From Achromobacter sp. Root83 (GTDB lineage Bacteria; Pseudomonadota; Gammaproteobacteria; Burkholderiales; Burkholderiaceae_B), in assembly GCF_001428845.1 (NCBI RefSeq), contig NZ_LMIU01000007.1, forward strand, positions 63,459 through 127,458: 64,000 nucleotides of DNA. Direction: 5' to 3'. Shown here in pieces: positions 44,793 through 64,000 of this stretch; position 1 is the first letter of the stretch; each line of letters begins with the position of its first letter. Position numbers and translations under genes: made by a program. The notes under the pieces were generated by a model. It was not told where the DNA came from. It ran no database searches and saw only the letters and a list, made by a program, of their open reading frames with translations.

Positions 44793-44827
44793 GGCTTAAA
44801 GCCCTGGTTTTTTTAGGGCTTTAAGCC
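44793..44827 (+). promoter_or_regulatory. Large hairpin between ugpB and ugpA
   Basis: Perfect 13-base arms GGCTTAAAGCCCT / AGGGCTTTAAGCC around a T-rich 9-base loop. It may end or slow transcription after ugpB or protect its 3' end. Confidence 0.6.
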
Positions 44828-44900
44828 TATCGTGTTTTTATGAGTGCCGGAGCTTTCGGGTTCCGGGCGCCTCGCGCGATGCTGGCGAAGGCGGTTTCAG

Positions 44901-44927
44901 GCGGCGGTTACTCCAACCGCCGCTTTT
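44901..44927 (+). terminator. Intrinsic terminator 20 bases before ugpA
   Basis: GCGGCGGTT-ACTCC-AACCGCCGC followed by TTTT. It looks like a full intrinsic terminator, so ugpAEC would depend on read-through or on regulation of this element. Confidence 0.65.
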
Positions 44928-44947
44928 CTGTACCTTGGGTTCCCCCT

Positions 44948-45829: not shown

Positions 45830-45850
45830 TTTTGTTCGAGGCTCATAACA

Positions 45851-46702: not shown

Positions 46703-46751
46703 CGCTTGCCCGCCCTCGCCCACCCGAACACGACTCCGAACACGAATAAAC

Positions 46752-47840
46752 ATGGCTACTCTCAGCTTCCGTAACGTCAAGAAAACCTACGCCGGCAACG
46801 TGCCTGTCATCCATGGCATCGACATGGACGTCAAGGACGGCGAATTCATCGTCATCGTCGGCCCGTCCGGCTGCGGCAAATCCACGCTGATGCGCATGGT
46901 CGCGGGCCTGGAAACCGTCACCAGCGGCGACATCGTGATCGACGACAAGGTCGTCAACACCCTCGAGCCCGCCGAACGCGACATCGCGATGGTGTTCCAG
47001 AACTACGCGCTCTACCCGCACATGACCGTGTTTGAAAACATGGCCTACGGCTTGAAGATCCGCAAGTTCTCCAAGGACGAGATCAAGAAGCGCGTGGACA
47101 TCGCCGCGCAGATCCTGGAACTCGGCCACCTGCTCGACCGCCGTCCGCGCGCCCTGTCGGGCGGCCAGCGCCAGCGCGTCGCCATGGGCCGCGCCATCGT
47201 GCGCGAACCCAAGGTGTTCCTGTTCGACGAACCCCTGTCGAACCTGGACGCCAAGCTGCGCGTGGCGATGCGCCTGGAAATCATGAAGCTGCACCGCCGC
47301 CTTGGCACCACCAGCCTGTACGTGACGCACGATCAGGTCGAGGCCATGACGCTGGCGCACCGCATGATCGTCATGTACCAGGGCGTGCCCGAGCAGATCG
47401 GCACCCCGATGGAGGTGTTCGAAAAGCCCGCCTCCACGTTCGTGGCCGGTTTCATCGGCTCGCCGCCGATGAACCTGATGGAAGTGGACGTGGCCGGCGA
47501 CGGCACGGTCCAGACCACCGACCGCAATCACCTGGATATCTCGCCGCTGCAGGTGCCGTCGCAGGTGCGCGGCCGCAAGGTCATCATGGGCCTGCGCCCG
47601 GAACACATGCTGCTGAACACGCAGGGCGTCCCGGCTGAAGTGGAAATGGTCGAGACGCTGGGTTCCGAGCAGCTTGTCCACTGCCGCTGCGGCAAGAGCA
47701 CGCTGGTCGTGCGCTGCACGACGCGCCAGCTGTCCGAGTCCTCGGCCAAGGTCGGCGACCGCGTCAATGTCGGCCCGGACGGCCGTCATCCGCTGCACTG
47801 GTTCGAGGCCGACACCGGCCGCCGCGTGCAGGGCCTGTAG
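46752..47840 (+). CDS. ugpC: Glycerol-3-phosphate ABC ATPase UgpC
   Basis: 362 residues. Walker [10 protein letters not shown], signature [14 protein letters not shown], Walker [16 protein letters not shown], His loop [19 protein letters not shown]-terminal TOBE region (about 240-360) is the regulatory domain of MalK/UgpC-type ATPases. No ugpQ phosphodiesterase gene follows; the operon is ugpBAEC only. Confidence 0.94.
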
Positions 47841-47964: not shown

Positions 47965-49092
47965 TTACTTGTAGACGGTCTTGGAACCGTCCTTGTGCCA
48001 GGTGAAGACGTCGAACTGGAAGTTCGTCAGGTCGCCCTGCTTGTTCCACGACACCTTGCCGATGGGCGTCTCGAAGGCGTTGGCATGCAGGTACTTGGCG
48101 ACCTTGGTGGGGTCGTCGCTGCCCGCGCCCTTGATGCCGTCGGCGATGACCTGGGTGGCCGCGTAGGCGGTCATCTGGAACGCGCCGCTGGCGTTGCGCT
48201 TCTTGGCTTCGAATGCCTTCACGATGTCGGCGTTGGCGGCGTTCTGGGTGAAGTCGGCCGGCAGCGTCAGCAGCATGCCTTCGACGGCGTCGCCGGCGAT
48301 GGCGTTGATGTCGGGGTTGCCCGTGCCTTCCGGACCCATCCACTTGGCCTTCACGCCCTGCTCGGCGGCCTGGCGCAGCAGCAGGCCCATTTCAGGGTGG
48401 TAGCCGCCGTAGTACACGAAGTCGACGCCTTGGGCCTTGAGCTTGGTGATGACGGCCGAGTAGTCGCTGTCGCCGGCGTTGATGCCTTCGAAGATCGCGA
48501 CGGCCACGCCGCCCTTTTCGAGGTCGTTCTTGACCGCCGTGGCGATGCCCTGGCCGTACGACTGCTTGTCGTGCAGCACGGCGACCTTCTTCGGCTTGAT
48601 CTTTTCCAGGATGAACTTGGCGGCGGCCGGGCCTTGCTGGTCGTCGCGGCCGATGGTGCGGAAGATGAACTCGTAATTCTTGCCGTCGGTCAGCGCCGGC
48701 GACGTGGCCGAAGGCGTGACCATGACGACGCCTTCGTTGTTGTAGATGTCGGCGGCGGCGATGGTGGCGCCCGAGCACACATGGCCCACGACGAAACCGA
48801 TCTTGCTGTTGACGACACGGTTGGCGGCGACCGGCCCTTGCTTGGGTTCGCAGCCGTCGTCGATCACGACGGTTTCAAGCTTCTTGCCGTTGATGCCGCC
48901 GGCGGCGTTGATGCGTTCCACGGCCGTATCAACCCCTTCACGGACCATGTCGCCATACTGAGTGACCGCGCCGGTGGTGGGGCCTACGACGCCGATCTTA
49001 ATGGTTTGCGCGTGGGCGGCCGCGCCAAACGTCAAACCAGCGGCGACCCCCAGCGCTGCGATGACCGGGGTCAGACGAAATACTGGCTTCAT
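47965..49092 (-). CDS. Branched-chain amino acid-binding protein, LivJ-like, orphan
   Basis: 375 residues. Signal peptide ending FGAAAHA-QTI, then IGVVGPTTGAVTQYGDMVREG, the disulfide pair in VIDDGCEPKQ and VVGHVCSG, and LLLRQAAEQGVKAKWMGPEG. It resembles livK (40297) over the whole length, so it is a paralogue that could feed the LivHMGF complex with a different ligand. It has no permease genes beside it. Confidence 0.9.
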   Translation of the reverse strand: MKPVFRLTPVIAALGVAAGLTFGAAAHAQTIKIGVVGPTTGAVTQYGDMVREGVDTAVERINAAGGINGKKLETVVIDDGCEPKQGPVAANRVVNSKIGFVVGHVCSGATIAAADIYNNEGVVMVTPSATSPALTDGKNYEFIFRTIGRDDQQGPAAAKFILEKIKPKKVAVLHDKQSYGQGIATAVKNDLEKGGVAVAIFEGINAGDSDYSAVITKLKAQGVDFVYYGGYHPEMGLLLRQAAEQGVKAKWMGPEGTGNPDINAIAGDAVEGMLLTLPADFTQNAANADIVKAFEAKKRNASGAFQMTAYAATQVIADGIKGAGSDDPTKVAKYLHANAFETPIGKVSWNKQGDLTNFQFDVFTWHKDGSKTVYK

Positions 49093-50311: not shown

Positions 50312-53300
50312 ATGGCAAAGCGTGTTGCCCTCATTGGACTCTCGTTCCGATTTCCCAGCACTGACTCCCTGCGTTACTGGCCCGATCTTTTACAGGGCCG
50401 CGACCTCGTCACTGAGGTCGACCCGGACCGCTGGGCCACCGACACCTATCACCACCCCTTGCGCGAGCATCCCGGCACGGCGTATACACGCGCGGCGGGA
50501 TCGCTGGGCGATGTCTCCGGATTCGATGCCGCCTTCTTCGGCATTTCGCCGCGCGAAGCCGCCCTGATGGACCCGCAGCAGCGGATGCTGCTGGAGATGG
50601 CCTGGGAGGCAATCGAGAGCGCCGGGATCAAGCCTTCTTCGCTGCGCGGCAGCGACTGCGGCGTCTATGTGGGCATCGCCAGCGCCGACTATTCCTACCG
50701 CATGGCCGAAGACCTGGGCGTGATCGACGCCGCGTTCGCCACGGGCAACACCAACAGCATCGCCGCGAACCGCCTGTCCTACGTCTACGACCTGCGCGGA
50801 CCGAGCATGGCGGTGGACACCGCGTGTTCGTCGTCGCTCGTCGCGTTCCACCAGGCCTGCCGCGCCATCGAGTCGGGCGACATCTCCCAGGCGCTCGCAG
50901 GCGGCATCAGCCTGCACCTGCATCCCTATGGCTTCCTGATTTTCTCCAAGGCGTCGATGCTCTCGCGCCTTGGGCGCTGCAATGTGTTCGACGCCGCCGG
51001 CGACGGTTACGTCCGCTCGGAAGGCGGCGGCCTGTTCATGCTGAAGGAGCATGACCGCGCGATCGCCGACGGCGACCGCATCCTGGCGGTCGTTGCCGGC
51101 ACCGGCGTCAATACCGACGGCCGCAAATCCGGCCTGACCGTGCCCAGCGCCGAGGCCCAGGCGGCCTTGCTGCGCCAGGCCTACGATCGCGCCGGCATCC
51201 TGCCGGAAGACGTGGACTACCTGGAGGCGCACGGCACCGGCACGCCGGTCGGCGATCCCATCGAGACCCGCGCCATCGGCATGGCGCTGGGACAGCGGCG
51301 TCCCGCGGGCAAACCCCTGCCCATCGGCTCCATCAAGAGCAACATGGGCCACCTGGAAGCGGCCTCCGGCGTGGCCGGTTTGGTGAAGGCGGTTTACAGC
51401 CTGCAGCATCGGACCGTGCCCCCCACCATCGGCGTGCGTGAACTGAATCCCGCCATCCGCGCCGAAGAATGGAACCTGGATATCGTCACGCGCACGCATG
51501 CGCTGCCCGCCACGGGCCGCCTGGTCATCGGCGTGAACTCGTTTGGGTTCGGCGGCGCCAACGCGCACGTGATCCTGCAGACGCCGGACGCTACGCCCGC
51601 CGCGCAGGCCACCATCCCGGCCACCATCCCGGCCACCATCCCGACCTCCCACCCGGCCAACATCCCAGCCGCCATCCCGGCCGCGACGGCGCCCTCGCCC
51701 GCCGTGCCGCTGATCGTGTCGGCGCGCACGCCGCAGGCGCTGAAGGCAGCCGCGCGCGACATGGCGCGGCACCTGCAGGCGTCGCCCGGCTCGACGCTCT
51801 ATGACATCGCCTATCAGGCCGCGCTGAAGCGCGAACGGCATGAGCACCGGGCATTGGCCTGGTGCTCGGACCGCGGCGAGGCGGCGGACCTGCTGCAGCG
51901 CTATGCGGACGATGAAGAGGCTTTTGCGGTGCAGACCGCCGAAGGCCTGCCCGATCCGCAAGGTCCGGTCTTCGTGTACTCGGGCAACGGATCGCAGTGG
52001 GCGGGCATGGGCAGCCGATTGCTCGACAGCCCCGTGTTCCGCGCTGCCATCGACGAGGTGGACGCCCTGTTCGCCCCGCTCGCGGGCTACCGCCTTGCGG
52101 ACGAACTGGCCGGCCAGTTGGACGGTTCGCGCTACGCGCACACGGAGTTCGCACAGCCCGCGCTGTTCGCCCTGCAAGTGGGCGTGACCCGCATGCTCGC
52201 CCAGCTAGGCGTGACGCCGCGCGCGGTCGTGGGCCACAGCGTGGGCGAGGTCGCGGCGGCCTGGGCCTGCGGCGCCCTGTCCCTGCCGGACGCGGTTCAG
52301 GTGATCCATCATCGCAGCAGGCTGCAGGGCGAGACCCGCGGCAGCGGCAAGATGACCGCGATAGGCGTGGACGGCGGCAGCGCGCAGGCCTTGCTGACCG
52401 AGCTGGGCCTGGCGAACGCGCTGGTCGTGGCCGGCTACAACAGTTCCCGTGGCGCGACCATCGCCGGCGAGCCGCTGGCGCTGGCCCGCCTCGAAGCGGC
52501 CCTTCAGCAGCGCGGCGTGGCCAGCAAACGGCTGGACCTGGACTACGCATTCCACAGCCCCGCGATGGACGGCCTTGCGCCCGAACTGCACGCGGCGCTG
52601 AGCGCGCTGGACCCGCGCGCCCCGTCCTGCGATTTCTATTCCGCCGTGACGGGCGGCCCGCTCGCCGCCGATACACTGGACGCCGACTACTGGTGGCGCA
52701 ACATCCGCCAGCCGGTGCGGTTCGAACAGGCATTGACCCAATGCGTGGGGGATGGCCACAGCGTGTTTGTGGAAATCGGCCCGCATGCCGTTTTGCGCGG
52801 TTACGTCAGCGACGCCTTGAAACGGGCCGAACGGCCCGGCCGCGTGGTGGCCACCGTCACGCGCGGCGAGGACGAGCCCCGCAAGGTCGCCAACGCGGCC
52901 GCGCAGCTCATCCTGAGCGGCGCGAACGTGGACTGGAACGCGTCATTCCCCACCCCGGGACTTCCCCACGCCCTGCCCGCCTATCCGTGGCAACGCGAGC
53001 GCCATTGGTACGCCGAAACGCCGCAATCGCTGGGACTGCTTCACCGCCATCGCGTGCACCCGCTGCTTGGATACCGGCTGGCTCAGCAGGAACTGACCTG
53101 GGAGAACCAGCTCGACACGCATTCGCACCCGGAACTGGCCGACCACGTGGTCGGCGAGGCCACGGTGTTCCCGGGCGCGGGCTTTGTCGAAATCGCCCTG
53201 GCCGCCGCGCTGGAACGCCGGCCCGGCGCCTATGCCGAACTCGAAAACCTGGAAATCCACACGCCGCTGCTGCTGGCGGCCGCGCCATCCAAGCTGCTGC

Positions 53301-56300
53301 GCTGCGCCATCGAATCCGAGGATGGGCGCCTGCGCATCCAGGCGCGCGAACTGGGCAGCGACGACGCGTGGACCCGCCACGTGTCGGCGCGTATCCGGCC
53401 TGAACCGGGCGCGGCGCTCCTGACCACCCCCATGCCGGCGCTGCCCGAACGCCAGCCCGACTTCCAGGCCGAAGACCATGCGGCGCTGACGGCGGCGTTC
53501 GGCCTGCACTACGGACCCGCTTATGCCCTGATCGAACATGGCTGGCGCCTCGATCCGGCCACCTTGCTGGCGTGTTTGCGGGTTGACGGGCATGAACAGC
53601 CCGGCCACCTGGAACCCGCCCGCCTGGACAGCGCCTTTCAAATGGCCGTGCATCTGCTCGAAGGGCAATCGTCGATGGGTCTCGGCATGGCGTTCGTGCC
53701 CGCCCGGATCGGCCGGATCGCCCTGCGCACCGGCGCGGGCCAACCCCGCTACGTGCGCTTGCGCGTGACGCGGCGCACGCCCCATGCCTTGACCGTCGAA
53801 ATTGCGTTGTACGGCGAGGACGGCACGCAATTGGCCGCGCTGTCCGAAGTGAGCCTGCGCGGCATCCGCCTCGTCAAACAGACCGAGGACCGCCTGAGCT
53901 TCATCGACGAAGCGCTCACGCCGCGCCCCAGGCCCGACGGCGCCGCCGCCGCGCCGCTGCCCACGCTGCGCCAGGCCCTGTCGGACGCGCTGGCCGACGC
54001 GGCAAAGGACCCGGCTTACGCCTGCTACGCCGACGAAGCCGAACCGCTGCTGGACGCGCTGTGCGACCAGTACGGCCTGCAGGCCTTGCGCGCGCTCGCG
54101 GATCCCCAAGGCGACATCGCCGATGCGGCCTTGCGCGAGCTGCGAACGCGCACGGCCGGCATGGCGCCGATGCTGGATATGCTGCTGGAACGCGCCCAGA
54201 CCGCCGGCGTGGCCGAGCGCAACGCCACAGGCTGGTCGCTGACGATGGACCAGCCGGGCGAAACCGCCGCCGCCGACATCTGGAATGCACTCGCGCGCGA
54301 CTATCCCGCCCACTTCGCGCCGGCGCTCGCCGCCGGCCGCGTCGGCCTGCATCTGGCCGCCTTGCTCCAGGGCGTGTCGCTGCCGGAGACGGTCGCCTCG
54401 CCGCTGTTTGACCCGGCCGACCTTGGCAATCATCTGCTGGCGGCGCCCGCCCGCCAGCAGCTTGCACAATCGCTCTGCGCCATCCTGTCGGACGCGCAGA
54501 CCCGGCTTGCCGCCGGCAAGCGCCTGCGCGTCCTGGAAATGGGCGCGCAAACCCCGCTGCTGGGCGCCGACTGCTGCGCGTCGCTGGACTTCACGCGCGC
54601 GGATTATTGCTATGCCACCGCCACCGAAACCGGCCTGGACGCGGCCGCCGCCCGGCTCGCGGCCTATCCCGACGCCATGTTGCGCCTGATCGGCGACTTG
54701 GCGGATGCGGGATCCATGACCGGCGCCGGGGTGGACCTAGCGGTCGTGCAATGCAATTTCGACTCGCTCGCGCAGACCCGCGCCGCGCTGCACGACGCCC
54801 GCTCCCGCCTGGCGCCGGGCGGCTCCCTGATCATCGTGGGACACCACCCCGCGCACTGGGCCGACTTCGTGTTCGGCGTGCGCGAATCGTGGTGGTCGGA
54901 AGCTGGCGACGGCGGCCGGGTTTCCATGCAGCAGGCGCCCGATTTCTGGCGCCATGAACTGCAGGCGCTGGGCTGCGCCTGCGAGCCGCCCTTGGAATTG
55001 AATCCTGGTGCCGCCGCTGGCGCGTATCTGCTGCACGCGCGGGCAGGCGAATTGACGGAAGCGGCCACCGCCGACGCGGATGCGCCCGTGCCCGCGCCGG
55101 GACGCTGGCTGTTGCTTGCCGACGACCAGGGGCCCGGCGCCGCGCTGGCGGCCACGCTCGCGCGCAAGCTGCGTGAAGATGGCCTCGCGGTGACCCATTT
55201 GGCGCTGGAGGCGGCCTCGCCGTCCGATACGCTGCCCGCCATTGCGCAGGGCGAGCACTACGACCACGTCGTGCACCTGGCGGGCCTGTACGGCGCGGGC
55301 GCCGATGCGCAGTCCGCCTGCCACGCGCAGGCGCGCCGCTGCGCTTTGGCCGCCGCCGCGCTGCGCGCCTGCGAAAAACATGGGCGGCCCGCCACGCTGT
55401 GGCTGTTGACCGCCGGCGCGCGCACCCCGGACGGCCGTCCCGCCACGACCCTGCGCGGCCTTGCCGACGCGGCGCTGAGCGGCTATGGCCGCAGCATCAT
55501 GAATGAATCGGCGGACACCGCCGTGCGCCTGCTGGACATGCCGTCCGCGCCCGACGCCGCGCCCATCGCCGCCTTGCTGCGCGAGCTGACCGATCCGGAC
55601 GCCGAGCTGGAGGTGGTGCTGGATGCGCAGGGCGCGCGCTACGCGCCACGGCTGCGCGTCGTGCCCCGCCCCGTCGCGCCAGGCCCGGCGCCGCTCGCTC
55701 CGATGGTGCGCCGGCTGGGCTTCGAACTGCCCGGGCAGCTTCGCAACCTGCGCTGGGAGAGCCACCCGGCGCGGCCGCCCGCGGACGGCGAACTTGAAAT
55801 CCAGGTGCACGCCACGGGCCTGAACTTCCGCGATGTCATGTACACCTTGGGCCTGCTGGCCGACGAGGCGCTGGAAAACGGCTATGCCGGCGCCAGCCTG
55901 GGCCTGGAGTTCGCGGGCATCGTCCTGCGGACCGGCGCCGGGGTCACCGATTTTGCCCCGGGCGACGCCGTGCTGGGCTTCGGTCCGGCCAGCTTCTCGG
56001 ACCGCGTGCTGACCACGACGACCGCCGTCGCCGCCCTGCCGGAAGGCATGAGCTTCGAGGCCGCCGCCACCATCCCCAGCACCTTCTTCACCGTGTACTA
56101 CGCGCTGCACCATCTGGCACGCCTGGAACCGGGCGAAAAGGTCCTGATCCATGGCGCCGCGGGCGGCGTCGGCATTGCAGCGGTCCAATACGCCCAATGG
56201 CTGGGCGCCGAGATCTACGCCACGGCCGGCTCCGACGAAAAGCGCGATTTCCTGCGGATGATGGGCGTGGCGCATGTGTTCGATTCCCGCTCGCTGTCGT

Positions 56301-57967
56301 ACGCGGACGAGATCCGCGCATTGACGGGCGGGCGTGGCGTGGACGTCGTCCTGAACTCGCTGTCCGGCGAAGCGATCCGCCGCAACCTGGACGTGCTGGC
56401 GCCCTTCGGCCGCTTCCTGGAACTGGGCAAGCGCGACTTCTACGAAGACACCCGCATCGGCCTGCGCCCGTTCCGCAACAACATCAGCTATTTCGGCATC
56501 GACGCCGATCAGCTTCTGGCGGCGCGGCCCGAGCTGGCGCGGCCCCTGTACGCGAAGATGATGGAGCTGTTCCGCGACGGCGCGCTGCATCCGCTGCCGC
56601 AGCGCTGCTTCGAGGCGCGCGATGTCGTCGATGCGTTCCGCTACATGCAGCAGTCGCGCCAGATCGGCAAGATCGTCGTGACTTACCGCAACGGCCTGCC
56701 GTCCGACGCGGCGCCGCCCGCCCGCCAGACGCTGTCGCTGACGGCCGACGGATGCTATGTCGTGAGCGGAGGCCTGTCCGGCTTCGGTTTGCGCACCGCC
56801 TTGTGGCTGGCCGACAAGGGTGCGCGGCACCTGGTGCTTGCGGGCCGCAGCGGCTTGACGTCGGACGAGGCCCGCACCACGGTCGAAGCGCTGCGCGCGC
56901 GCGGCGTGCAGGTCATGGCGCAGGCGTGCGACATCGCCGACGCCGAGGCCGTGGGCGCCATGCTGTCCCTTGCAAGAGCGGCCTTTCCGCCCATCCGGGG
57001 CGTGGTCCACGCCGCCGCCGTGATCGAGGACGGCCTGGCGGCCGGCGCCAGCGAAGACCGCATCGAGCGGGTGCTGCGGCCCAAGATGCAGGGCGCGGCC
57101 GTGCTGCACGCGCTGACGCAGGACGACCCGCTGGACCACTTTGTCCTGTTCTCGTCGGCCACCACGCTCTTCGGCAACCCCGGGCAAAGCGCCTATGTGG
57201 CCGCCAACGCCTGGATGGAGTCGCTGGCGCGCGAGCGGCGCGCGCTTGGCCTGCCCGTGACCTGCGCGCGCTGGGGCGCGATCGGCGACGCGGGCTACCT
57301 GGCCCGCAACGAGGCCATCAGGCAGGCCTTGCAGCATCGCATGGGCGGGGCTGCCCTCAACGCATCCGGCGCGCTGGACGCGCTGGAAGACATGCTGCTG
57401 GCCGGCGCCAGCGGCCTGGGCGTCCTGGAACTGGACTGGCACGCGCTGGCCCGGCACCTGCCCGGCGCAGCCGCGCCCCGTTTTGCGGACATCGCCCGCC
57501 ATGCCGGCGAATCGTCCGACGCCGCCGGCGACTCCGACGACCTGCTGGCGCAACTGGACCAGCTTGACGATGCCGAGCTGGGCCCGCGCGTGATCGAGAT
57601 GCTGAAGCAGGAAGTCAGCGAGATCCTGCGCGTGCCCAAGGACAAGATCGAGGCCTCCCGCTCGCTCTACGACATCGGCCTGGATTCGCTGATGGGCGTC
57701 GAGCTGGTGGTGGCGCTGGAGGCCCGCTTCGGCATCCGGCTGCCGGTCATGGCGCTAAGCGAGAGCCCGACGCTGGACAAGCTGAGCGCCCGCCTGATCG
57801 CCGCCCTGCGAGGCGACAGCCGCCAGGAAACCGGCGACGATATCGCCGCCCAGATCGAAATGGTGGCTTCCCAACATGCGGCGCAGGTCGACCCCGAGCA
57901 TCTGGACGCGATTGCGAAACGCGTCCGCTCGGGCCAGGCGGAAGCCGGACAAGGAATGACCCAATGA
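50312..57967 (+). CDS. Highly reducing type I polyketide synthase (KS-AT-DH-degenerate MT-ER-KR-ACP)
   Basis: 2551 residues; a single-module synthase probably used iteratively. KS (1-425): VDTACSSS with Cys172, His307 (EAHGTGT), His347 (NMGHLEA). A 72-base in-frame repeat gives a TIPA-rich linker (434-457). AT (about 540-840): Ser643 in GHSVGE and YAFHSP, which favours malonyl-CoA over methylmalonyl-CoA. DH (905-1190): His945 (HVVGEATVFP, with Glu for the usual second Gly) and Asp1106 (LDSAFQ). Degenerate MT (about 1200-1560): SAM motif reads LEMGAQTP at 1408-1415. Structural KR part (1570-1790), ER (1800-2125; NADPH motif LIHGAAGGVG at 1945), KR (2140-2330; Ser2282, Tyr2295), ACP (Ser2459 in GLDSLMG). 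There is no thioesterase or reductase after the ACP, only a helical tail of about 60 residues. It resembles, from memory, WcbR of Burkholderia capsule I. The alpha-oxoamine synthase overlaps its stop by 4 bases. Confidence 0.93.
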   Translation: MAKRVALIGLSFRFPSTDSLRYWPDLLQGRDLVTEVDPDRWATDTYHHPLREHPGTAYTRAAGSLGDVSGFDAAFFGISPREAALMDPQQRMLLEMAWEAIESAGIKPSSLRGSDCGVYVGIASADYSYRMAEDLGVIDAAFATGNTNSIAANRLSYVYDLRGPSMAVDTACSSSLVAFHQACRAIESGDISQALAGGISLHLHPYGFLIFSKASMLSRLGRCNVFDAAGDGYVRSEGGGLFMLKEHDRAIADGDRILAVVAGTGVNTDGRKSGLTVPSAEAQAALLRQAYDRAGILPEDVDYLEAHGTGTPVGDPIETRAIGMALGQRRPAGKPLPIGSIKSNMGHLEAASGVAGLVKAVYSLQHRTVPPTIGVRELNPAIRAEEWNLDIVTRTHALPATGRLVIGVNSFGFGGANAHVILQTPDATPAAQATIPATIPATIPTSHPANIPAAIPAATAPSPAVPLIVSARTPQALKAAARDMARHLQASPGSTLYDIAYQAALKRERHEHRALAWCSDRGEAADLLQRYADDEEAFAVQTAEGLPDPQGPVFVYSGNGSQWAGMGSRLLDSPVFRAAIDEVDALFAPLAGYRLADELAGQLDGSRYAHTEFAQPALFALQVGVTRMLAQLGVTPRAVVGHSVGEVAAAWACGALSLPDAVQVIHHRSRLQGETRGSGKMTAIGVDGGSAQALLTELGLANALVVAGYNSSRGATIAGEPLALARLEAALQQRGVASKRLDLDYAFHSPAMDGLAPELHAALSALDPRAPSCDFYSAVTGGPLAADTLDADYWWRNIRQPVRFEQALTQCVGDGHSVFVEIGPHAVLRGYVSDALKRAERPGRVVATVTRGEDEPRKVANAAAQLILSGANVDWNASFPTPGLPHALPAYPWQRERHWYAETPQSLGLLHRHRVHPLLGYRLAQQELTWENQLDTHSHPELADHVVGEATVFPGAGFVEIALAAALERRPGAYAELENLEIHTPLLLAAAPSKLLRCAIESEDGRLRIQARELGSDDAWTRHVSARIRPEPGAALLTTPMPALPERQPDFQAEDHAALTAAFGLHYGPAYALIEHGWRLDPATLLACLRVDGHEQPGHLEPARLDSAFQMAVHLLEGQSSMGLGMAFVPARIGRIALRTGAGQPRYVRLRVTRRTPHALTVEIALYGEDGTQLAALSEVSLRGIRLVKQTEDRLSFIDEALTPRPRPDGAAAAPLPTLRQALSDALADAAKDPAYACYADEAEPLLDALCDQYGLQALRALADPQGDIADAALRELRTRTAGMAPMLDMLLERAQTAGVAERNATGWSLTMDQPGETAAADIWNALARDYPAHFAPALAAGRVGLHLAALLQGVSLPETVASPLFDPADLGNHLLAAPARQQLAQSLCAILSDAQTRLAAGKRLRVLEMGAQTPLLGADCCASLDFTRADYCYATATETGLDAAAARLAAYPDAMLRLIGDLADAGSMTGAGVDLAVVQCNFDSLAQTRAALHDARSRLAPGGSLIIVGHHPAHWADFVFGVRESWWSEAGDGGRVSMQQAPDFWRHELQALGCACEPPLELNPGAAAGAYLLHARAGELTEAATADADAPVPAPGRWLLLADDQGPGAALAATLARKLREDGLAVTHLALEAASPSDTLPAIAQGEHYDHVVHLAGLYGAGADAQSACHAQARRCALAAAALRACEKHGRPATLWLLTAGARTPDGRPATTLRGLADAALSGYGRSIMNESADTAVRLLDMPSAPDAAPIAALLRELTDPDAELEVVLDAQGARYAPRLRVVPRPVAPGPAPLAPMVRRLGFELPGQLRNLRWESHPARPPADGELEIQVHATGLNFRDVMYTLGLLADEALENGYAGASLGLEFAGIVLRTGAGVTDFAPGDAVLGFGPASFSDRVLTTTTAVAALPEGMSFEAAATIPSTFFTVYYALHHLARLEPGEKVLIHGAAGGVGIAAVQYAQWLGAEIYATAGSDEKRDFLRMMGVAHVFDSRSLSYADEIRALTGGRGVDVVLNSLSGEAIRRNLDVLAPFGRFLELGKRDFYEDTRIGLRPFRNNISYFGIDADQLLAARPELARPLYAKMMELFRDGALHPLPQRCFEARDVVDAFRYMQQSRQIGKIVVTYRNGLPSDAAPPARQTLSLTADGCYVVSGGLSGFGLRTALWLADKGARHLVLAGRSGLTSDEARTTVEALRARGVQVMAQACDIADAEAVGAMLSLARAAFPPIRGVVHAAAVIEDGLAAGASEDRIERVLRPKMQGAAVLHALTQDDPLDHFVLFSSATTLFGNPGQSAYVAANAWMESLARERRALGLPVTCARWGAIGDAGYLARNEAIRQALQHRMGGAALNASGALDALEDMLLAGASGLGVLELDWHALARHLPGAAAPRFADIARHAGESSDAAGDSDDLLAQLDQLDDAELGPRVIEMLKQEVSEILRVPKDKIEASRSLYDIGLDSLMGVELVVALEARFGIRLPVMALSESPTLDKLSARLIAALRGDSRQETGDDIAAQIEMVASQHAAQVDPEHLDAIAKRVRSGQAEAGQGMTQ
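51611..51682 (+). repeat. In-frame 12-base minisatellite in the PKS KS-AT linker
   Basis: Six units of 12 bases of the form ACCATCCCGGCC, four close and two diverged, each reading Thr-Ile-Pro-Ala. Multiples of 12 keep the frame, so copy number can vary without breaking the synthase; it may change linker length. Confidence 0.85.
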
Positions 57968-59319
57968 CGCAGGACAGAGGCCCCGCGGGCGGCCGGCCAG
58001 GGCTGGCCGCCAGCATCAAACAACGTCTGATCCAGGAATCGCTGCAGCGCAAGCTGCGCGGCGCCGGACGCCAGGCGCCCGCGGCGCAGGCCACGGGCAG
58101 CCATGCCGAGGTGCCCGAGCAGCACTACCGCTTTGCGCTGCATCCGGGATACCAGCAACTGCGTATCCTCAGCGAAGGCGCGGCCACCCTGGGCGTCAGC
58201 AGTCCCTTCTTCAAGGTGCATGAAGGCAATGCCGGCGCGTCCACCCGGATCTCGGGCCAGCCCTACCTGAACTTCGCCAGCTACAACTACCTGGGCCTGT
58301 CCGGCGATCCGGTGGTGGCGGCCGCGGCCAAGGCGGCGATCGATCATTACGGCACGTCCGTGTCCGCCAGCCGGCTGGTGTCGGGCGAGCGGCCCCTGCA
58401 CCGGGAACTGGAACAGGCGCTGGCGGACCTCTATGACGTGGACGACGCCGTCACCTTCGTCAGCGGCCACGCAACCAACGTTTCGACGCTGGGCTTTCTG
58501 TTCGGCCCCAACGACCTGATCGTGCACGACGACCTGATCCACAACAGCGTCCTGCAAGGCATCCAGCTTTCGGGCGCGCGCCGGCTGTCGTTTCCCCATA
58601 ACGACGCCGACGCCCTGGACGCCCTGCTCGCGGACAACCGCCGCCAGTTCGAGCGCGTCCTGATCGTGCTGGAAGGGATCTACAGCATGGACGGCGACTA
58701 CCCCGACCTGCCCCGCTTCGTCGAGATCAAGCATCGCCACCGCGTGTTCCTGATGGTGGACGAGGCGCATTCCCTGGGCGTGATGGGCAAGCGCGGCCAT
58801 GGCATCCGCGAACATTTCGGCCTGCGCGGCGGCGACGTCGACATCTGGATGGGCACGTTGAGCAAGACCCTAGCGGGCTGCGGCGGCTATATCGCCGGCG
58901 AGCGCGCGCTCGTCGACCATCTGAAGTGCCTGGCCCCCGGGTTTCTGTACAGCGTGGGCATGCCGCCGCCGGTCGCGGCCGCCAGCCTGGCGGCGCTTGG
59001 ACGCCTGCACGCGCTGCCCGACCGCGTGGCGGCCCTGCAGGCGCGCGGCGCCAGCTTCCTGGCGCAGGCGCGCGCGGCCGGCGTCGACACCGGCACCAGC
59101 ACGGGCCTGGCCATCGTTCCGGCCATCGTGGGCACATCGCTCAGGGCCGCCAAGCTGTCGTCCGCGCTGTTTGGCCAGGGCATCAACGCGCAGCCCATCC
59201 TGTATCCGGCCGTGCCCGAGAAGTCGGCGCGGCTGCGGTTCTTCCTGTGCAGCGAGCACAGCGAGGCGGACATCGCCCTGGCTGTCGCCACGCTGGCGCG
59301 GGAACTGGCGCGCCTGTAG
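57964..59319 (+). CDS. PLP-dependent alpha-oxoamine synthase (AONS/SPT/KBL family)
   Basis: 451 residues. The family condenses an acyl thioester with an amino acid and loses CO2, giving an alpha-amino ketone. Motifs: NFASYNYLGLSG, FVSGHATNVST (PLP-stacking His), LEGIYSMDGDYPDLP, VDEAHSLGVMGKRG, and Schiff-base Lys301 in TLSKTLAGCGG. An N-terminal extension of about 60 residues, basic and helical (IKQRLIQESLQRKLRG), is not in ordinary AONS and may dock on the PKS. ATGA overlap with the PKS and lack of a thioesterase there suggest it releases the chain from the ACP. By sequence the donor amino acid (Ala, Ser, Gly) cannot be told. Confidence 0.9.
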   Translation: MTQDRGPAGGRPGLAASIKQRLIQESLQRKLRGAGRQAPAAQATGSHAEVPEQHYRFALHPGYQQLRILSEGAATLGVSSPFFKVHEGNAGASTRISGQPYLNFASYNYLGLSGDPVVAAAAKAAIDHYGTSVSASRLVSGERPLHRELEQALADLYDVDDAVTFVSGHATNVSTLGFLFGPNDLIVHDDLIHNSVLQGIQLSGARRLSFPHNDADALDALLADNRRQFERVLIVLEGIYSMDGDYPDLPRFVEIKHRHRVFLMVDEAHSLGVMGKRGHGIREHFGLRGGDVDIWMGTLSKTLAGCGGYIAGERALVDHLKCLAPGFLYSVGMPPPVAAASLAALGRLHALPDRVAALQARGASFLAQARAAGVDTGTSTGLAIVPAIVGTSLRAAKLSSALFGQGINAQPILYPAVPEKSARLRFFLCSEHSEADIALAVATLARELARL

Positions 59320-59323
59320 GCGG

Positions 59324-59345
59324 CCGGCGCCGCCTCAGGCGCCGG
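59324..59345. terminator. Hairpin between the convergent PKS and capsule operons
   Basis: Perfect 8-base arms CCGGCGCC / GGCGCCGG with a 6-base loop spanning the 15-base gap and the last codons of the phosphotransferase gene. No U-run, so efficiency is uncertain. Confidence 0.5.
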
Positions 59346-60840
59346 ACATCAATCCCATGTGGCGCAGGAAAATGCCGGCAAGATCCGTGGCGGCGACCGC
59401 CTCGGCGTCCGGCCGGCCGGCATGGCCCGGCCGCCACACCAGATAGTCCGTCGCGCCGTCCGGCGCGCCAAGCTGGCGGTAGACCTGCGGCATGATGGGG
59501 ACGTGGTCTCCATAGATGCACAGGCCGGCCGGCCGTGGCAGGTCCGACAGCGTGTGGGCCAGCGACGTGAACATCGCGTCCGCATTGCACAGATGGCGGC
59601 AGTACGCGACCAGGTCGGCGCAACCCGGTGGCAGCGCCTGCGCGCAAACGGCGTCTTCGTCGCCGGGCGCCACGCGCTCCAGATGCAGCGGGCCGTGGTT
59701 TTCCATGGTGATCACATGCACGTACAGCGGCTGCGTGCGTTCACGCCGCAGCACGGACGCGACATGCTCCGCCACGGCGCGATCGCCCACATAGGGCGCG
59801 CCGTCCAGCGGCCCCGCAAACGCGGCGATATCGATGAATTCATCGAAACCCAGCAGCGGAAGCACGCGGTCCCTGCCGTAGAAGCTGCCGTGATAGGGAT
59901 GCACGCAGACCGTGCGATAGCCCTGTTTGCGCAGATAGCTCGCCATCGTGTCCAACCCGGCGCGGGCCAGCCGCCGGTACGGCTGGTAGCGGTGCACGCC
60001 CTGCTCGCGCGGACCCAGTCCCGACAGAAAGGCGAACTCGGTACGCACGGTATTGGCGCCCCACGACGCCACGCGAAGCTGGCCGTGCGCGCACGCCTGC
60101 GCGCGCAATCGATCGAATCCGTGCAGCATGCCGGCACGCAGTTGCGGATACAGCGGGCGCGGATCGAAGAAGGACTCGCTCTGCACGGCCACCAGGTCGG
60201 GCAATGGCCCGGCCACCGCCGGCGCGGCTTGCGAGAACGGCGTGAGCGGCGGGTCGATGAACCGGCGTTCGGCCTGCGCGTAGCGCCACAGCGACATCGC
60301 CAGCCCGAGCCTGCGCAGGTCCTTGCGCGCCTCGAACGACACCGGCACGTTTCTTGAATTCCCCCATGCCGCCAGCACCGCGCCGGCCGCGCCCAGCGCC
60401 GCCGCCAGCGTCCACGCGCGCACGGCGCTTTCCAGCAGCCATCCGGCCGCCACCGCCGCCGCCACGCCGGCGGCCACCGCGAGCGCGCGCGCGATGCCCA
60501 GGAACGGCAGGTACAGCCGTGGATGGCGGATCGCATCGGTGAAGTACTCGAAGTCCGCCCATACGAAGGGTTCGCGCAGCGCCTGGTATTTCGCGTTGTT
60601 CACCGCGACGATCAGGCCGAACGCCGCCAGCAGGATGGCGGCGGCGAAATAAGGCCGCCCCACGATGGCCCATGCGCAGGCAAAGGCAAAGATCCATGCG
60701 CCCGCATGCAGCGCCAGCGCGGCCAACGGCCGGCGCCATGGCGCGCGCGGGCGCGGCGCCAGTCCCGCCTCCAGCAGCCACGTCGCCAGCAGGCCGCCGG
60801 CCAGCGGCGCGGCGACAGCGCTCCAGACCGCGTCAGGCAC
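59335..60840 (-). CDS. Membrane phosphotransferase of the LtaS/sulfatase fold
   Basis: 501 residues. About five hydrophobic helices in the first 160 residues, then an alkaline-phosphatase-like domain. Metal-site Glu222 (VQSESFFDPR), nucleophile Thr264 in GANTVRTEF (aligns with the T-S-D-x-E-F of LtaS), ITMENHGP with a conserved His, and IYGDHVPIM with the metal-binding Asp/His. LtaS, OpgB and EptA relatives move phosphoglycerol or phosphoethanolamine from phospholipids to an outer-leaflet acceptor. Overlaps the SDR by 8 bases. In context, the acceptor may be the capsule or the PKS-derived lipid; that is inference. It may correspond to WcbQ of Burkholderia. Confidence 0.8.
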   Translation of the reverse strand: MPDAVWSAVAAPLAGGLLATWLLEAGLAPRPRAPWRRPLAALALHAGAWIFAFACAWAIVGRPYFAAAILLAAFGLIVAVNNAKYQALREPFVWADFEYFTDAIRHPRLYLPFLGIARALAVAAGVAAAVAAGWLLESAVRAWTLAAALGAAGAVLAAWGNSRNVPVSFEARKDLRRLGLAMSLWRYAQAERRFIDPPLTPFSQAAPAVAGPLPDLVAVQSESFFDPRPLYPQLRAGMLHGFDRLRAQACAHGQLRVASWGANTVRTEFAFLSGLGPREQGVHRYQPYRRLARAGLDTMASYLRKQGYRTVCVHPYHGSFYGRDRVLPLLGFDEFIDIAAFAGPLDGAPYVGDRAVAEHVASVLRRERTQPLYVHVITMENHGPLHLERVAPGDEDAVCAQALPPGCADLVAYCRHLCNADAMFTSLAHTLSDLPRPAGLCIYGDHVPIMPQVYRQLGAPDGATDYLVWRPGHAGRPDAEAVAATDLAGIFLRHMGLMSGA

Positions 60841-61603
60841 CGTAGCCCAGCCTGCGCAGTATCCACCCCGAGCACGCGGGCGGCAGTCCGGCCAGCAGCC
60901 AGCAGCCCAGGCTCAGCGGGAAGGGAAAGCTGATGCGGGCACGATCCGCCGCCAAGCCCAGCCGTATGCGGCCGGCGGCGCGCTCCGCGCTCAGTTCAAA
61001 GGGCTTGGGCCCGGGCATGGCCGCGCACATCGGCGAGGTCACGTAGCCGGGCATCACCACGCTGACCCGTACCCCATGCACCCGCAGCCCGTCGCGCAGG
61101 GCCTCGCCGTAGGCCTTCAAGGCGGCCTTGCTGGCGCTGTAGCTTGGGGTGGCCGGCAGCCCGCGCCACGCGGCTTGCGAGCTCATCAGCGCAATCTGCC
61201 CCGACCCCCGCCGCCGCATGCCTTCGGCCAGCGCGTGCGTGACCGCCAGGGCCGCGCGCAGGTTGACCTCGATGAGCGTTTCCATGTCCTGCCAGGACTC
61301 GCCCTGTCCGGGCGCGGGCGCCGAGATATTGACGCCCGCATTGACGACCGCGAGGTCGGGCAGCCCATCGCCGGCCAGTTCGCGCAGCCAGCCGTCCAGC
61401 GCCGGGCGGTCCCGCAGGTCCAGCACCTTGGCGCGCACGCGCGCGCCGCGCGCCTCGCAGCGCCCAGCGAGTTCGCGCAGGACCGGCTCGCGGCGGCCCT
61501 GCAGCGTCAGGCTGGCGCCGGGCCGGGCATATTCCAGCGCCAGCGCCTGGCCGATGGCGCCCGTGGCGCCGGTGATCAGAACGGATTCGGGTGCGCGCGT
61601 CAT
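60833..61603 (-). CDS. Short-chain dehydrogenase/reductase with hydrophobic C-terminal tail
   Basis: 256 residues. NAD(P) motif LITGATGAIGQALA, TLQGRRE (a basic residue favouring NADPH), VVNAGVN, and catalytic Ser in LMSSQAAW with Tyr155 and Lys159 (YSASKAALKAYGEALR). After residue about 210 comes a strongly hydrophobic tail (SFPFPLSLGCWLLAGLPP), as in membrane-bound sphingolipid ketoreductases. It overlaps KpsS by 4 bases. A plausible role is reduction of the 3-keto group left by the oxoamine synthase. It may correspond to WcbP. Confidence 0.85.
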   Translation of the reverse strand: MTRAPESVLITGATGAIGQALALEYARPGASLTLQGRREPVLRELAGRCEARGARVRAKVLDLRDRPALDGWLRELAGDGLPDLAVVNAGVNISAPAPGQGESWQDMETLIEVNLRAALAVTHALAEGMRRRGSGQIALMSSQAAWRGLPATPSYSASKAALKAYGEALRDGLRVHGVRVSVVMPGYVTSPMCAAMPGPKPFELSAERAAGRIRLGLAADRARISFPFPLSLGCWLLAGLPPACSGWILRRLGYGA

Positions 61604-62823
61604 GCGTATTCCTCCAGCACGGAGCGGTCGCGCTCCATCCGGTCCGCGGCGTGGCGCGTGGCCAGCGCGATCCCCTCGGCGCTGTAGAAGCCGCCGTTGA
61701 TCTGCGTGGCATGCACCACCGCCGCCTTGAACTGCCTGAAGAATACCGGGTCGGGCGGCGCCGCGCCTTGCCAGAAGTCGTCGAGCTGCCCCTGGAAGGT
61801 CAGCCCCTCCAGGTGGTAGACGGCCGCGCTCAGGGCGAGCGTCGGGCAGCCTGCCTCCAGCGCGGCCGCGCCCACGGTGCTGTTCACGGTGACGACGCCC
61901 GCCGCCCGCGCCAGCAGACTGGGCAGATGCCCGGCTTCCAGGTAGATCACCCTGTCGGCCACGCCGAACATGCGCGCCAGATCCCGCACGCCGCTTTCAT
62001 GGCGCGCCACGCCGGGGTCCAGCGGATGGTTCTTCACCACCAGCAGGCTTTGCGCCGGCGCGTGGGCCGCGAACGAGGCCAGCACCAGCGCGGCCACCTG
62101 CCGCATGCTCCGGAAAGGCGAGTGATGCAGGATCTGCGCGTCGCCGTCGAGCTGCAGCGGGAACAGATAGTAGGGGTTTGGCCCGGCGGCCACCCGCGCC
62201 ACCGCCGCGGCGTCGGCGCGGCCGCGCAGGCGCAGCTTGACCGCGCGGCGCACATACGCGCCGTACTCCCTGGCGGCGCCGTACGGCGCATGGGTGCGGT
62301 AGCGTGGATAGCAGACGGGGTTGAGCGCGCCGCACACGTGATAGGCCACGTCGTGGGCCGCCCGGTTCCAGAATGGAGCGCGGAACGGCTGGGGCACCGG
62401 CGCGGACGCCAGCCGCCGGCCCGCTTCGCGATACCAGCCCGGCTCGCGGGGCAGCGCCGAATTGGCGTTCACCCCGCCGCGCTCCAGCGTCACCCAATGC
62501 GGGCGGAAATAGCCTTCTTCAAACACGTGTGTCCGCAGGCCCCGGCCGCGCGCCAGCGCGACGGCGGGACGATGGACTGGCCGGCAATCGCCGAACAGCA
62601 CGATGTCCGTCGCGCCAGAGGCCTGCAGCGCGTCTTCGTAAAATGCGTCCAGGCCGTCCGGACGGCCCCTGAAGGACCATGTCCGGCCGCGCCGCCAGTA
62701 GGCGGAATCGCCCACCGTGAAGTTCACCTTGCCGACGGCATGGCCGCGATCCGCCAGCACACCGGCCAGGCGCTCGAAGAACGGCGAACAAACGCCCTGC
62801 AGAAATAGATACGAACGGCTCAT
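61600..62823 (-). CDS. kpsS: Capsule polysaccharide beta-Kdo transferase KpsS
   Basis: 407 residues. LFLQGVCSPFFERLAGVLADRGHAV and FEEGYFRPHWVTLE are the KpsS/LipB/WcbO hallmarks; GDCRPVHRPAV, VKNHPLDPGV and VTVNSTVGAAALEAGCPTL are typical of the GT99-like fold. KpsS starts the poly-Kdo linker on a lyso-phosphatidylglycerol in the Group 2 capsule model. ATGA overlaps with both neighbours show a tightly coupled operon. Confidence 0.9.
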   Translation of the reverse strand: MSRSYLFLQGVCSPFFERLAGVLADRGHAVGKVNFTVGDSAYWRRGRTWSFRGRPDGLDAFYEDALQASGATDIVLFGDCRPVHRPAVALARGRGLRTHVFEEGYFRPHWVTLERGGVNANSALPREPGWYREAGRRLASAPVPQPFRAPFWNRAAHDVAYHVCGALNPVCYPRYRTHAPYGAAREYGAYVRRAVKLRLRGRADAAAVARVAAGPNPYYLFPLQLDGDAQILHHSPFRSMRQVAALVLASFAAHAPAQSLLVVKNHPLDPGVARHESGVRDLARMFGVADRVIYLEAGHLPSLLARAAGVVTVNSTVGAAALEAGCPTLALSAAVYHLEGLTFQGQLDDFWQGAAPPDPVFFRQFKAAVVHATQINGGFYSAEGIALATRHAADRMERDRSVLEEYA

Positions 62824-64000
62824 GGCGCGAACCGCGCCCGCAGCAAGGTATCCAGCTTGCGCCACTGGCGGCGCGCGTAGCCCACCCGCAGCCGGGCCAG
62901 CTTGCCCTCGCGCGCCAGTTCGTCGCGCGTTTCCACGATCCGGTTCAGCACGGCCTCGCAGGTGGTGTAGCCCTTCAGCTCCCAGTCCCAATACAGCGGA
63001 TAGCGAAGCAGCACGCCGGCCACGAGCTCGTCCAGGCTCAGCGGGCGATCCCGCCGCGCGATGGGCAGGCGGTCCTCGGTGAGGCCCCAGCCCGCATAGA
63101 AGGGACGCCCGTGCGTCACCACCCGCTTGCCCCGCAGCAAGGCATCGAACCCCGACAGCGAAGTCATCGTGTGCACGACATCGCAGGCATCGATGCAGGC
63201 AACCACCGAGGACTCGGTCTCGACGTGGTCCGCCAGCGCCAGCAGGGCCGCCGGCGCCACCGCGCCGCGCCGGTTGCCGGAGGCGACGTCGGGATGCGGC
63301 TTGTACACGATGTAGGCGTCGGGATGGCTGCGCCGCGCCTGCCGCAACAGTTCCAGATTGGTGTCCACGCCGTCGCAGCCCAGGCGCACGGAAACGTCGT
63401 CCTCGACCTGGCCCGGTACCAGCACCACCTCCTTGCCCCGTACCGGCCACCGCACGGCGCGGGTCGGCTCCAGGTTGTACTTGGTGATGCCATGGGCCAC
63501 CATGAATGCGCGCACGCGCCGCGCCGTGGCCAGCTCGCCGGGGCTGAAGCGAACCTGGTTCAGCTCCTGCTCCAGGTCGCTGGGACGGGTCGGGTCGAAA
63601 TACATGCCCTGCCCGTCCAGGGCCAGGCTCAGCGGCCGGATCAGGTCCGATCCCAGCCCCACCGAACGCACGAAACCGTCCTCGACCCGCAGCACCGCGC
63701 AGCCGGTGCGCCGGGCAAGCTGGACCAGCCCGTCCGGCGCCTCCGCGCTCCAATGGACGAGCGCATCGCCGGGGCCCAGATCCAGCGCTTTCGCGCGGCG
63801 GGCGTCCGGCACGAACAGCACGCGATCCGTCTGCAGCGACAGCATCGGCCGGATGTTAGCCGCCTTCCAGCGTCGGAATCCCACGCCCACGATCCTGCGA
63901 GGCAGACGCTCCGCCATGGTCCGCTGCCGCAGCAGCCAGCCGATCGCATCGAAGATGCTGCCCTGCCGGTGGCTGACCGGGTCGAGATAGCGGGTGTAAT
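62820..64000 (-). CDS. kpsC: Capsule polysaccharide beta-Kdo transferase KpsC, 5' end cut by window edge
   Basis: 392 residues visible. The reading frame continues past ATG 63917 to the edge (TRYLDPVSHRQGSIFDAIGWLL), so this is the C-terminal half of a two-domain KpsC (about 650-700 residues). It carries VLRVEDGFVRSVGLGSD, VYKPHPDVASGNRR and TSLSGFDALLRGKRVVTHGRPFYAGWGL, repeated hallmarks of the family. KpsC adds Kdo residues after KpsS. It overlaps kpsS by 4 bases and is the first visible gene of that operon. Confidence 0.92.
   Translation of the reverse strand, partial: YTRYLDPVSHRQGSIFDAIGWLLRQRTMAERLPRRIVGVGFRRWKAANIRPMLSLQTDRVLFVPDARRAKALDLGPGDALVHWSAEAPDGLVQLARRTGCAVLRVEDGFVRSVGLGSDLIRPLSLALDGQGMYFDPTRPSDLEQELNQVRFSPGELATARRVRAFMVAHGITKYNLEPTRAVRWPVRGKEVVLVPGQVEDDVSVRLGCDGVDTNLELLRQARRSHPDAYIVYKPHPDVASGNRRGAVAPAALLALADHVETESSVVACIDACDVVHTMTSLSGFDALLRGKRVVTHGRPFYAGWGLTEDRLPIARRDRPLSLDELVAGVLLRYPLYWDWELKGYTTCEAVLNRIVETRDELAREGKLARLRVGYARRQWRKLDTLLRARFAP

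Follow-up and report, generated by a model that had tools for sequence, protein, structure and literature searches.

In Escherichia coli, KpsS transfers the first 3-deoxy-D-manno-oct-2-ulosonic acid (Kdo) of the capsule linker onto (lyso)phosphatidylglycerol ((lyso)PG), and KpsC extends the Kdo chain (PMC10148158, PMC7694667). A further gene set is already known as wcbR/T/Q/P/O in Burkholderia and rkpA/G/H/I/J in rhizobia; a lipid carrier or anchor has long been proposed for the rkp genes (PMC3557214), and the wcb genes of Cobetia have already been suspected of making a capsule lipid (PMC11766843). In Pseudomonas fluorescens MYb115, a harmless commensal of worms, deletion of sgaA or sgaB, which encode a polyketide synthase (PKS) and an alpha-oxoamine synthase (AONS), removes C24, C26 and C28 sphinganines; purified SgaB strongly prefers serine, and, SgaA and SgaB having been tested, the short-chain dehydrogenase (SDR) SgaC is proposed to act as ketosphinganine reductase (PMC12134224). 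That 2025 study also describes lipids heavier by 154 Da that were read from exact mass as phosphoglycerol sphingolipids, reports a host effect, and treats the free sphingolipid as a secondary metabolite; as available to us, its text neither names an enzyme for the phosphoglycerol step nor contains the term LTA. Here we analyse a locus of six genes at positions 50312-64000 of a 64,000-nucleotide stretch of Achromobacter sp. Root83 (contig NZ_LMIU01000007.1, positions 63,459 to 127,458; the window). We propose from comparative evidence, with a probability of roughly 0.65, that the locus supplies phosphoglycerol-sphinganine, a mimic of lyso-PG, as the acceptor of KpsS and the anchor of the capsule. 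A lipid of this kind was called new in an original prediction made from the DNA sequence alone. Both the capsule-lipid idea (PMC3557214, PMC11766843) and PKS sphingolipids (in 2025) had been published, but no open-licence publication among the matches listed (by title, start of abstract and term counts) joins sphingolipid chemistry to use as a capsule anchor.

The following features were identified, and open reading frames (ORFs) and Pfam matches confirm the six genes where they had been predicted:

50312-57967, + strand: highly reducing iterative type I PKS of the WcbR/RkpA/SgaA type, 2551 aa (ORF, Pfam and motifs)
57602-57796, + strand: acyl carrier protein (ACP) domain at the PKS C-terminus (PF00550, aa 2431-2495)
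57964-59319, + strand: AONS of the WcbT/RkpG/SgaB type, 451 aa, predicted serine C-acyltransferase
59335-60840, - strand: LtaS/GacH-type membrane phosphotransferase (WcbQ/RkpI), predicted glycerol-phosphate transferase (PF00884, E 1.5e-32)
60833-61603, - strand: SDR of the WcbP/RkpH/SgaC type, predicted 3-ketosphinganine reductase (PF00106, E 1.5e-33)
61600-62823, - strand: KpsS-type beta-Kdo transferase (WcbO/RkpJ), belonging to the class that accompanies sphingoid-base pathways (PF05159, E 3e-79, scanned minus the first seven residues)
62820-64000, - strand, truncated by the window end: KpsC, dual beta-Kdo transferase (PF05159 in the visible part; the complete protein is 686 aa in locus L005)

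The lipid genes had been described as fused to a group 2 capsule operon. The six genes are indeed packed together, neighbours within a set overlapping by a few bases and the AONS start overlapping the PKS stop, but they form two convergent sets, PKS-AONS on the + strand and kpsC-kpsS-SDR-ltaS on the - strand. A search of the window's own genome found PF05159 confined to this locus; past the window the contig continues for about 1 kb.

Both KpsS and KpsC are encoded, as in group 2 capsules, which are Kdo-linked and exported by ATP-binding cassette (ABC) transporters, and the locus has these two families and the Kdo linker logic in common with E. coli. The kps stretch of E. coli UTI89, however, has no annotated PKS, AONS, SDR or LtaS-like gene, and its KpsS falls into another class and is 34% identical to that of the window. 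The Sinorhizobium rkp-1 locus (L057) carries PKS, AONS, SDR, LtaS-like and KpsS genes in a row, the same families as in the window (AONS 47%, LtaS-like 28% and SDR 29% identical), although no KpsC match lies within its stretch. By published annotation, wcbR, T, Q, P and O of Burkholderia and wcbPQRT of Cobetia also represent these families in one locus (PMC4275268, PMC11766843). In B. pseudomallei BPSL2786-2792 the names match, with an LpxC-like gene (BPSL2788) in between (PMC4275268), and Caballeronia and Paraburkholderia loci likewise have an extra LpxC-like gene between PKS and AONS, some also a GNAT gene, whereas the window has none between its genes. The LpxC-like deacetylase genes lie at 14021-14947 of L059 and 13887-14801 of L062 (Caballeronia, Paraburkholderia) and GNAT genes occur in L058, L062 and L072; both possibly act on the sphingoid base by modifying its amino group.

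The closest comparison is with SgaA, SgaB and SgaC (PMC12134224), which are alike in comprising a monomodular reducing PKS, an AONS and an SDR. In a Pseudomonas putida 31753 locus (L072), the PKS start agrees with the primer published for the start of sgaA at 22 of 22 bases, and the PKS end agrees with the one for the end of sgaA at 19 of 23; no sequence in L072 closely matches the sgaB end primer. The nearest relative of sgaA that we found lies in a Kps (capsule) locus, with the order PKS, AONS, PhyH, a split PF05159 gene, GNAT, LtaS-like, SDR, KpsS and KpsC, and its AONS belongs to the same group as that of the window. The MYb115 locus tags (PKS RS19805, AONS RS19800, SDR RS19775) leave space for the four genes that separate AONS from SDR in L072. 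The window proteins are 52% (PKS), 69% (AONS), 51% (LtaS-like), 55% (SDR) and 51% (KpsS) identical to those of L072; in the window, LtaS and SDR follow directly after AONS, without the PhyH, GNAT and additional PF05159 genes. The Sga cluster was published as a secondary-metabolite cluster, and the main text of PMC12134224 is without the terms capsul, kps, wcb, rkp, Kdo and polysaccharide.

From homology to this tested Pseudomonas relative, the locus almost certainly directs the synthesis of sphinganine. The predicted order of chain assembly, decarboxylative release, ketone reduction and head-group transfer matches the route shown or proposed for SgaA, SgaB and SgaC, and the likeness to fumonisin synthesis that had been pointed out was itself published in 2025 (PMC12134224). 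There, the fungal fumonisin and sphingofungin pathways are compared as working similarly, with a PKS, an oxoamine synthase and a ketosphinganine-type reductase; we draw this as a parallel in working and claim no membership.

By Pfam and motifs, the PKS has the domain order ketosynthase (KS), acyltransferase (AT), dehydratase (DH), an apparent decayed methyltransferase, enoylreductase (ER), ketoreductase (KR) and ACP. The motifs of KS (DTACSSS at aa 169, HGTGT at 307), AT (GHSVGE at 641, YAFH at 745), KR (YVAAN at 2295) and ACP (GLDSL at 2456) are intact, while the DH keeps its Asp (DSAFQ at 1106) and has a His motif deviating from the usual pattern. The decayed-methyltransferase-like stretch, at approximately aa 1400-1560 between DH and ER, has no Pfam methyltransferase match. 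As had been noted, there is no thioesterase: none of the 16 Pfam matches is to such a family, and 56 residues follow the ACP match before the C-terminus. It is thus monomodular, reducing, ACP-terminated and thioesterase-free, like the PKSs of the wcb/rkp/sga lipid module. Assignment to the swf PKS family of sponge symbionts was rejected; these enzymes are also monomodular KS-AT-DH-ER-KR-ACP proteins and were once filed with WcbR/RkpA, but their partners are a reductase-sulfotransferase and a radical SAM protein rather than an AONS, and their KS motif is HATGT where the window has HGTGT (PMC3908369).

In a quick tree the PKS-linked AONS proteins form one group apart from canonical serine palmitoyltransferase (SPT), BioF, ALAS and KBL; their 16 rows lie on one side of a branch with SH-aLRT support of 95, and the seven SPT rows are separate. 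The window AONS has an SKT motif at aa 300-302, the Lys of which we take to be the pyridoxal phosphate lysine, and its best matches among named isolate genomes are in Bordetella and Achromobacter (72-75% identity). It was rejected as a canonical SPT (273/640, 254/500 and 198/670 bits against the NCBIfam SPT cut-offs), as an 8-amino-7-oxononanoate synthase (BioF; TIGR00858, 331/426 bits) and as a glycine C-acetyltransferase (cut-off missed), the tree placing it apart in each case. Several relatives are fused: a PKS-AONS protein in Planktothrix, a KS-AT-ACP-AONS protein in Streptomyces, and single acyl-AMP-ligase-ACP-AONS proteins in metagenome-assembled genomes (MAGs) of Thermoguttaceae and Desulfobulbaceae (L134, 7880-11341; L131, 3863-7402), while in a cyanobacterial MAG an ACP-AONS protein follows an apparent acyl-AMP ligase (L120, 9665-11284). 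In these last three loci the same AONS family is found with the PKS exchanged for a fatty-acid loading enzyme. The existence of such PKS-AONS, KS-AT-ACP-AONS and acyl-AMP-ligase-ACP-AONS fusions suggests that the AONS takes its chain from an ACP, and in the window the PKS chain is presumably handed over from the C-terminal ACP. A Dechloromonas MAG has one PKS followed by two tandem AONS genes (L143, 9905-12491).

In the LtaS-like protein, Q220, E222, S223, T264, H382, G383, P384, G444, D445 and H446 are invariant among 20 rows; we assume that they fill the fold's roles of Q-x-E-S, Thr nucleophile, HGP and GDH. A profile of 20 such proteins matches eight PDB entries at E of 0.01 or lower, seven of them phosphoglycerol transferases or lipoteichoic acid primases or synthases, led by GacH (3e-35), LtaP (5.6e-23) and LtaS (9e-11), and one uncharacterised (VP1736). 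None of these matches is an ethanolaminephosphotransferase, and an ethanolamine-phosphate head group was rejected; the family sides with glycerol-phosphate transferases by its sequence relationships, although the LtaS equivalog NF053595 is not reached (27/970 bits). Transfer of glycerol phosphate is likely the reaction of this predicted enzyme, and because of the PDB matches and the invariant catalytic residues, phosphatidylglycerol as donor and the +154 Da lipids both fit it. The SDR had been described as membrane-tailed, which hydropathy did not confirm: no stretch of 19 residues reaches 1.6, the C-terminus being moderately hydrophobic.

GacH acts on a cell-wall polysaccharide, and as the best PDB match is this phosphoglycerol transferase, the LtaS-like enzyme might decorate the capsule polymer with glycerol phosphate, independently of the lipid. 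LtaP, the second match, is a lipoteichoic acid primase and primes a lipid; moreover, the LtaS-like gene accompanies the lipid genes in loci whose annotated sugar genes differ. Polymer decoration has been suggested for Cobetia, the capsule of which does carry glycerol phosphate (PMC11766843), but the B. pseudomallei capsule has a repeat of 2-O-acetyl-6-deoxy-heptose without glycerol phosphate and yet has the gene in its cluster (PMC5507470, PMC4275268). We consider this explanation very improbable.

Under the proposal that phosphoglycerol-sphinganine is the anchor, the PKS would build a long reduced acyl chain on its own ACP, the AONS would release it by decarboxylative condensation with serine as 3-ketosphinganine, and the SDR would reduce this to sphinganine. 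The LtaS-like enzyme may then transfer glycerol phosphate from phosphatidylglycerol to the primary hydroxyl; the product, phosphoglycerol-sphinganine, would be a single-chain lipid presenting the head group of lyso-PG. KpsS would place the first beta-Kdo on its glycerol, and KpsC would lengthen the Kdo linker, upon which the capsule would grow. KpsS enzymes would then fall into two acceptor classes.

The last of these expectations can be set against trees of KpsS and KpsC. Since KpsS acts on the lipid and KpsC on Kdo, a change of lipid should be reflected in KpsS and need not be in KpsC, and this is the pattern observed. Among 66 KpsS rows, the 18 from genomes without the pathway and the 48 with it are divided by one split (SH-aLRT 98, quick tree), whereas shuffled labels give a mean of 16 changes. 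The 18 are from genomes without a close AONS or LtaS-like gene, UTI89 being counted among them without a genome-wide search; each locus contributed its best-scoring ORF, or two in the case of the two-copy type, chosen with a profile trained on pathway loci. For 25 loci matched for both proteins, KpsS shows one change (support 94/91; the split occurs in 93% of 200 bootstrap trees) and KpsC shows six, a single KpsC clade being rejected (dlnL 292.5, p-AU 2.9e-62), in a KpsC tree with some long branches. This set excludes KpsC pieces of fewer than 430 aligned residues and, from 27 rows, L190 and L201, which have no KpsS in their stretches. Lowering the KpsC limit to 200 residues gives 37 loci with the same outcome at weaker support (KpsS one change, support 85; KpsC six changes, p-AU 1e-6); 21 loci with a KpsS row but no KpsC piece in the stretch are outside both matched sets.

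Individual pairs illustrate the difference. The window and G218, a genome from the same taxonomic order that lacks the pathway, are 60% identical in KpsC and 35% in KpsS, whereas the window KpsS shares 43% identity with its counterpart in G231 (L187), a genome from another taxonomic class that has the pathway; L065 and L171 (KpsC 49%, KpsS 38%) and L193 and L170 (KpsC 49%, KpsS 35%) are further pairs of the first kind. The window KpsS also scores below the cut-off of the equivalog NF050054 (247/600 bits), which agrees with a diverged acceptor class. Two tandem KpsS paralogues occur near PKS-AONS genes in L125, L127, L128, L130, L140 and L202, with no LtaS-like gene found in the genome, and perhaps serve to add a second Kdo or to handle a different head group.

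A search for the genes together across genomes had also been suggested, and complete or partial sets of these families are found in Sinorhizobium, Pseudomonas, Caballeronia, Paraburkholderia, Shinella, Halomonas, Thiothrix, Accumulibacter and others (the Caballeronia and Halomonas stretches do not include KpsS). Among 398 genomes drawn evenly from the phylum, PF05159 is present in 15 of the 17 with a close AONS (at least 50% identity) compared to 80 of 398 overall (Fisher p 1e-9, ignoring kinship) and in one of seven with a more distant AONS. The limits for AONS (E<=1e-75; close, at least 50% identity) and for the LtaS-like protein (432 bits, above a gap) were set after the lists had been inspected, and loci were inspected in all 26 genomes of the draw with PF05159 better than E 1e-60 plus eight weaker ones. 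Within the stretches of 88 larger loci (L057-L144), many of them incomplete, a PKS match is present in 74 and an LtaS-like gene in 36. For 25 named AONS genomes without a local LtaS-like gene, one was found elsewhere in the genome in 12, including Nitrosomonas, Leeia, Zoogloea and every one of the five genomes from Bordetella and Achromobacter that were searched.

It could be argued that PKS and AONS make a sphingolipid separate from the capsule, either residing in the membrane or secreted, that the capsule keeps its lyso-PG anchor, and that the genes are only neighbours. The free lipid of MYb115 does have a host effect (PMC12134224), two genomes (G178 and G458) carry the lipid genes without a strong KpsS, and the acyl-AMP-ligase-ACP-AONS relatives lie in stretches without a KpsS or KpsC match. 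However, KpsS tracks the lipid genes across the tree far more than KpsC does, genomes from several classes of the phylum have the lipid genes packed together with kpsS and SDR, and the title of Kiss et al. 1997 identifies rkpGHIJ as capsule genes. On balance this explanation is improbable.

The LtaS-like protein provides a second line of comparison. It reaches at least 432 bits in 17 of the 398 genomes, the next score being 321; 13 of these have an AONS, three a canonical SPT, and in one neither was found (G237, on a short contig of a genome that is 93% complete). In the three with SPT (G437, G461 and G451) the LtaS-like gene adjoins a pathway-class KpsS or lies one gene from it, there is no close AONS, and SPT scores 618, 610 and 470 bits, respectively, compared to 240-255 for other listed members of the family; the G451 protein exceeds the NF047599 cut-off as well, with 581. 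In 20 KpsS genomes lacking a close AONS, an SPT of such strength is present in 3/3 with and 1/17 without the LtaS-like gene (Fisher 0.0035, ignoring kinship). Because these three genomes represent two families only, SPT occurs in 7/110 genomes of the phylum, and G231 and G449 carry SPT as well as PKS-AONS, we regard the replacement as a pointer rather than proof.

A further explanation retains sphinganine as the anchor and places the LtaS-like enzyme later or elsewhere: KpsS would act in the cytoplasm on sphinganine or a differently phosphorylated form of it, and glycerol phosphate would be attached to the anchor or the polymer in the periplasm after export. The LtaS-like N-terminus has hydrophobic stretches (within aa 5-140 by hydropathy), LtaS-type catalytic domains face the periplasm, and some genomes that have PKS-AONS and a pathway-class KpsS yielded no LtaS-like gene. 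However, free lipids with the mass of phosphoglycerol-sphinganine are present in MYb115 (PMC12134224), and the known KpsS enzymes put Kdo on the glycerol of (lyso)PG (PMC10148158, PMC7694667), so that a phosphoglycerol head is the simplest acceptor. We find this order of events unlikely, although the least unlikely of the three alternatives.

Several observations weigh against phosphoglycerol-sphinganine as the KpsS acceptor and anchor. With an LtaS-type domain in the periplasm and KpsS in the cytoplasm, the lipid would have to be flipped back or the steps would need another order; inward flipping of single-chain lysolipids by transporters is known. No LtaS-like gene was found in 13 of the 25 named AONS genomes without a local copy, nor in G302, G397, G400, G152 and G304, several of which are MAGs, and Roseibium/Stappia-like loci have PKS, AONS and two pathway-class KpsS genes with no LtaS-like gene found, a type that seems not to need one. 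Conversely, G458 and G178 have PKS, AONS and LtaS without the strong KpsS, and G152 and G304 have the AONS without PF05159. The SPT replacement is open to the objections given above; G176, of the same family as G451, has SPT but no LtaS-like match among those listed, and SPT in the three replacement genomes may be lineage background. Neither matched set gives the KpsS split a star (94/91; 85), and KpsC labels are clustered beyond shuffles (6 compared to 10.3 changes, one of 500 shuffles being as low), though far less than those of KpsS; KpsC is thus not free of the label, yet it is exchanged where KpsS is not. KpsS may follow the lipid genes through one old linkage, which is countered by KpsC being equally near in many loci and yet following far less. 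The KpsS proteins of G239 (SPT), G203 (a distant AONS) and UTI89 (an annotated spt gene) fall into the other class, which shows that a sphingoid base is not enough by itself to bring the pathway type of KpsS. The head group of the MYb115 lipids rests on exact mass (PMC12134224), and no analysed capsule terminus with a sphingolipid was found in the literature searched. The predicted use as Kdo acceptor and capsule lipid is the reading with the best support, favoured by the KpsS and KpsC trees and by co-occurrence, a support that is comparative throughout; the wider trees of 37 loci left its probability as it was.

A broader claim is that a large proportion of Kdo-linked capsules, in Bordetella, Achromobacter, the Burkholderia group, Pseudomonas, Methylobacterium, Sinorhizobium and further genera, are built not on lyso-PG but on phosphoglycerol-sphinganine made through PKS-AONS-SDR-LtaS or, in certain lineages, through SPT, with KpsS classes following the lipid and KpsC being exchanged; we hold this to be slightly more probable than its negation. 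If so, the bacterial 'PKS sphingolipids' would be capsule precursors and not secondary metabolites, and many well-known capsules would be anchored otherwise than on the textbook lyso-PG, with Bordetella, Burkholderia and rhizobia as predicted exceptions. A structure would be named for the capsule lipid suspected for decades from the rkp and wcb genes, and both the Kdo transferases beside a 'secondary metabolite' sphingolipid cluster and the two kinds of KpsS would be accounted for. Capsule retention, the chemistry of conjugate vaccines, and symbiosis are areas on which this would bear.

PKS-AONS capsule loci are also found on plasmids, in L058 (a plasmid of Pseudomonas sp. TMW 2.1634), L062 and L064. 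The L058 plasmid is predicted to be mobilizable, with restriction genes and an IS5 transposase close to the locus, L062 lies near IS66 and IS21 elements, and the PKS-AONS module may travel.

In UTI89 (L207, 34177-40445), an acyl-AMP ligase, an epimerase, an ACP and an annotated SPT lie beside LptG/LptF homologues and some 29 kb away from the ABC transporter genes of the K1 capsule, in a genome whose KpsS is of the ordinary class; this is possibly a canonical sphingolipid operon in E. coli. Upstream of the PKS in the window itself are a ugpB-A-E-C-like binding-protein ABC transporter set (43328-47840; of the glycerol phosphate type, from reading only) and, after it, a binding protein of the branched-chain amino acid type (47965-49092, - strand), which look like ordinary neighbours.

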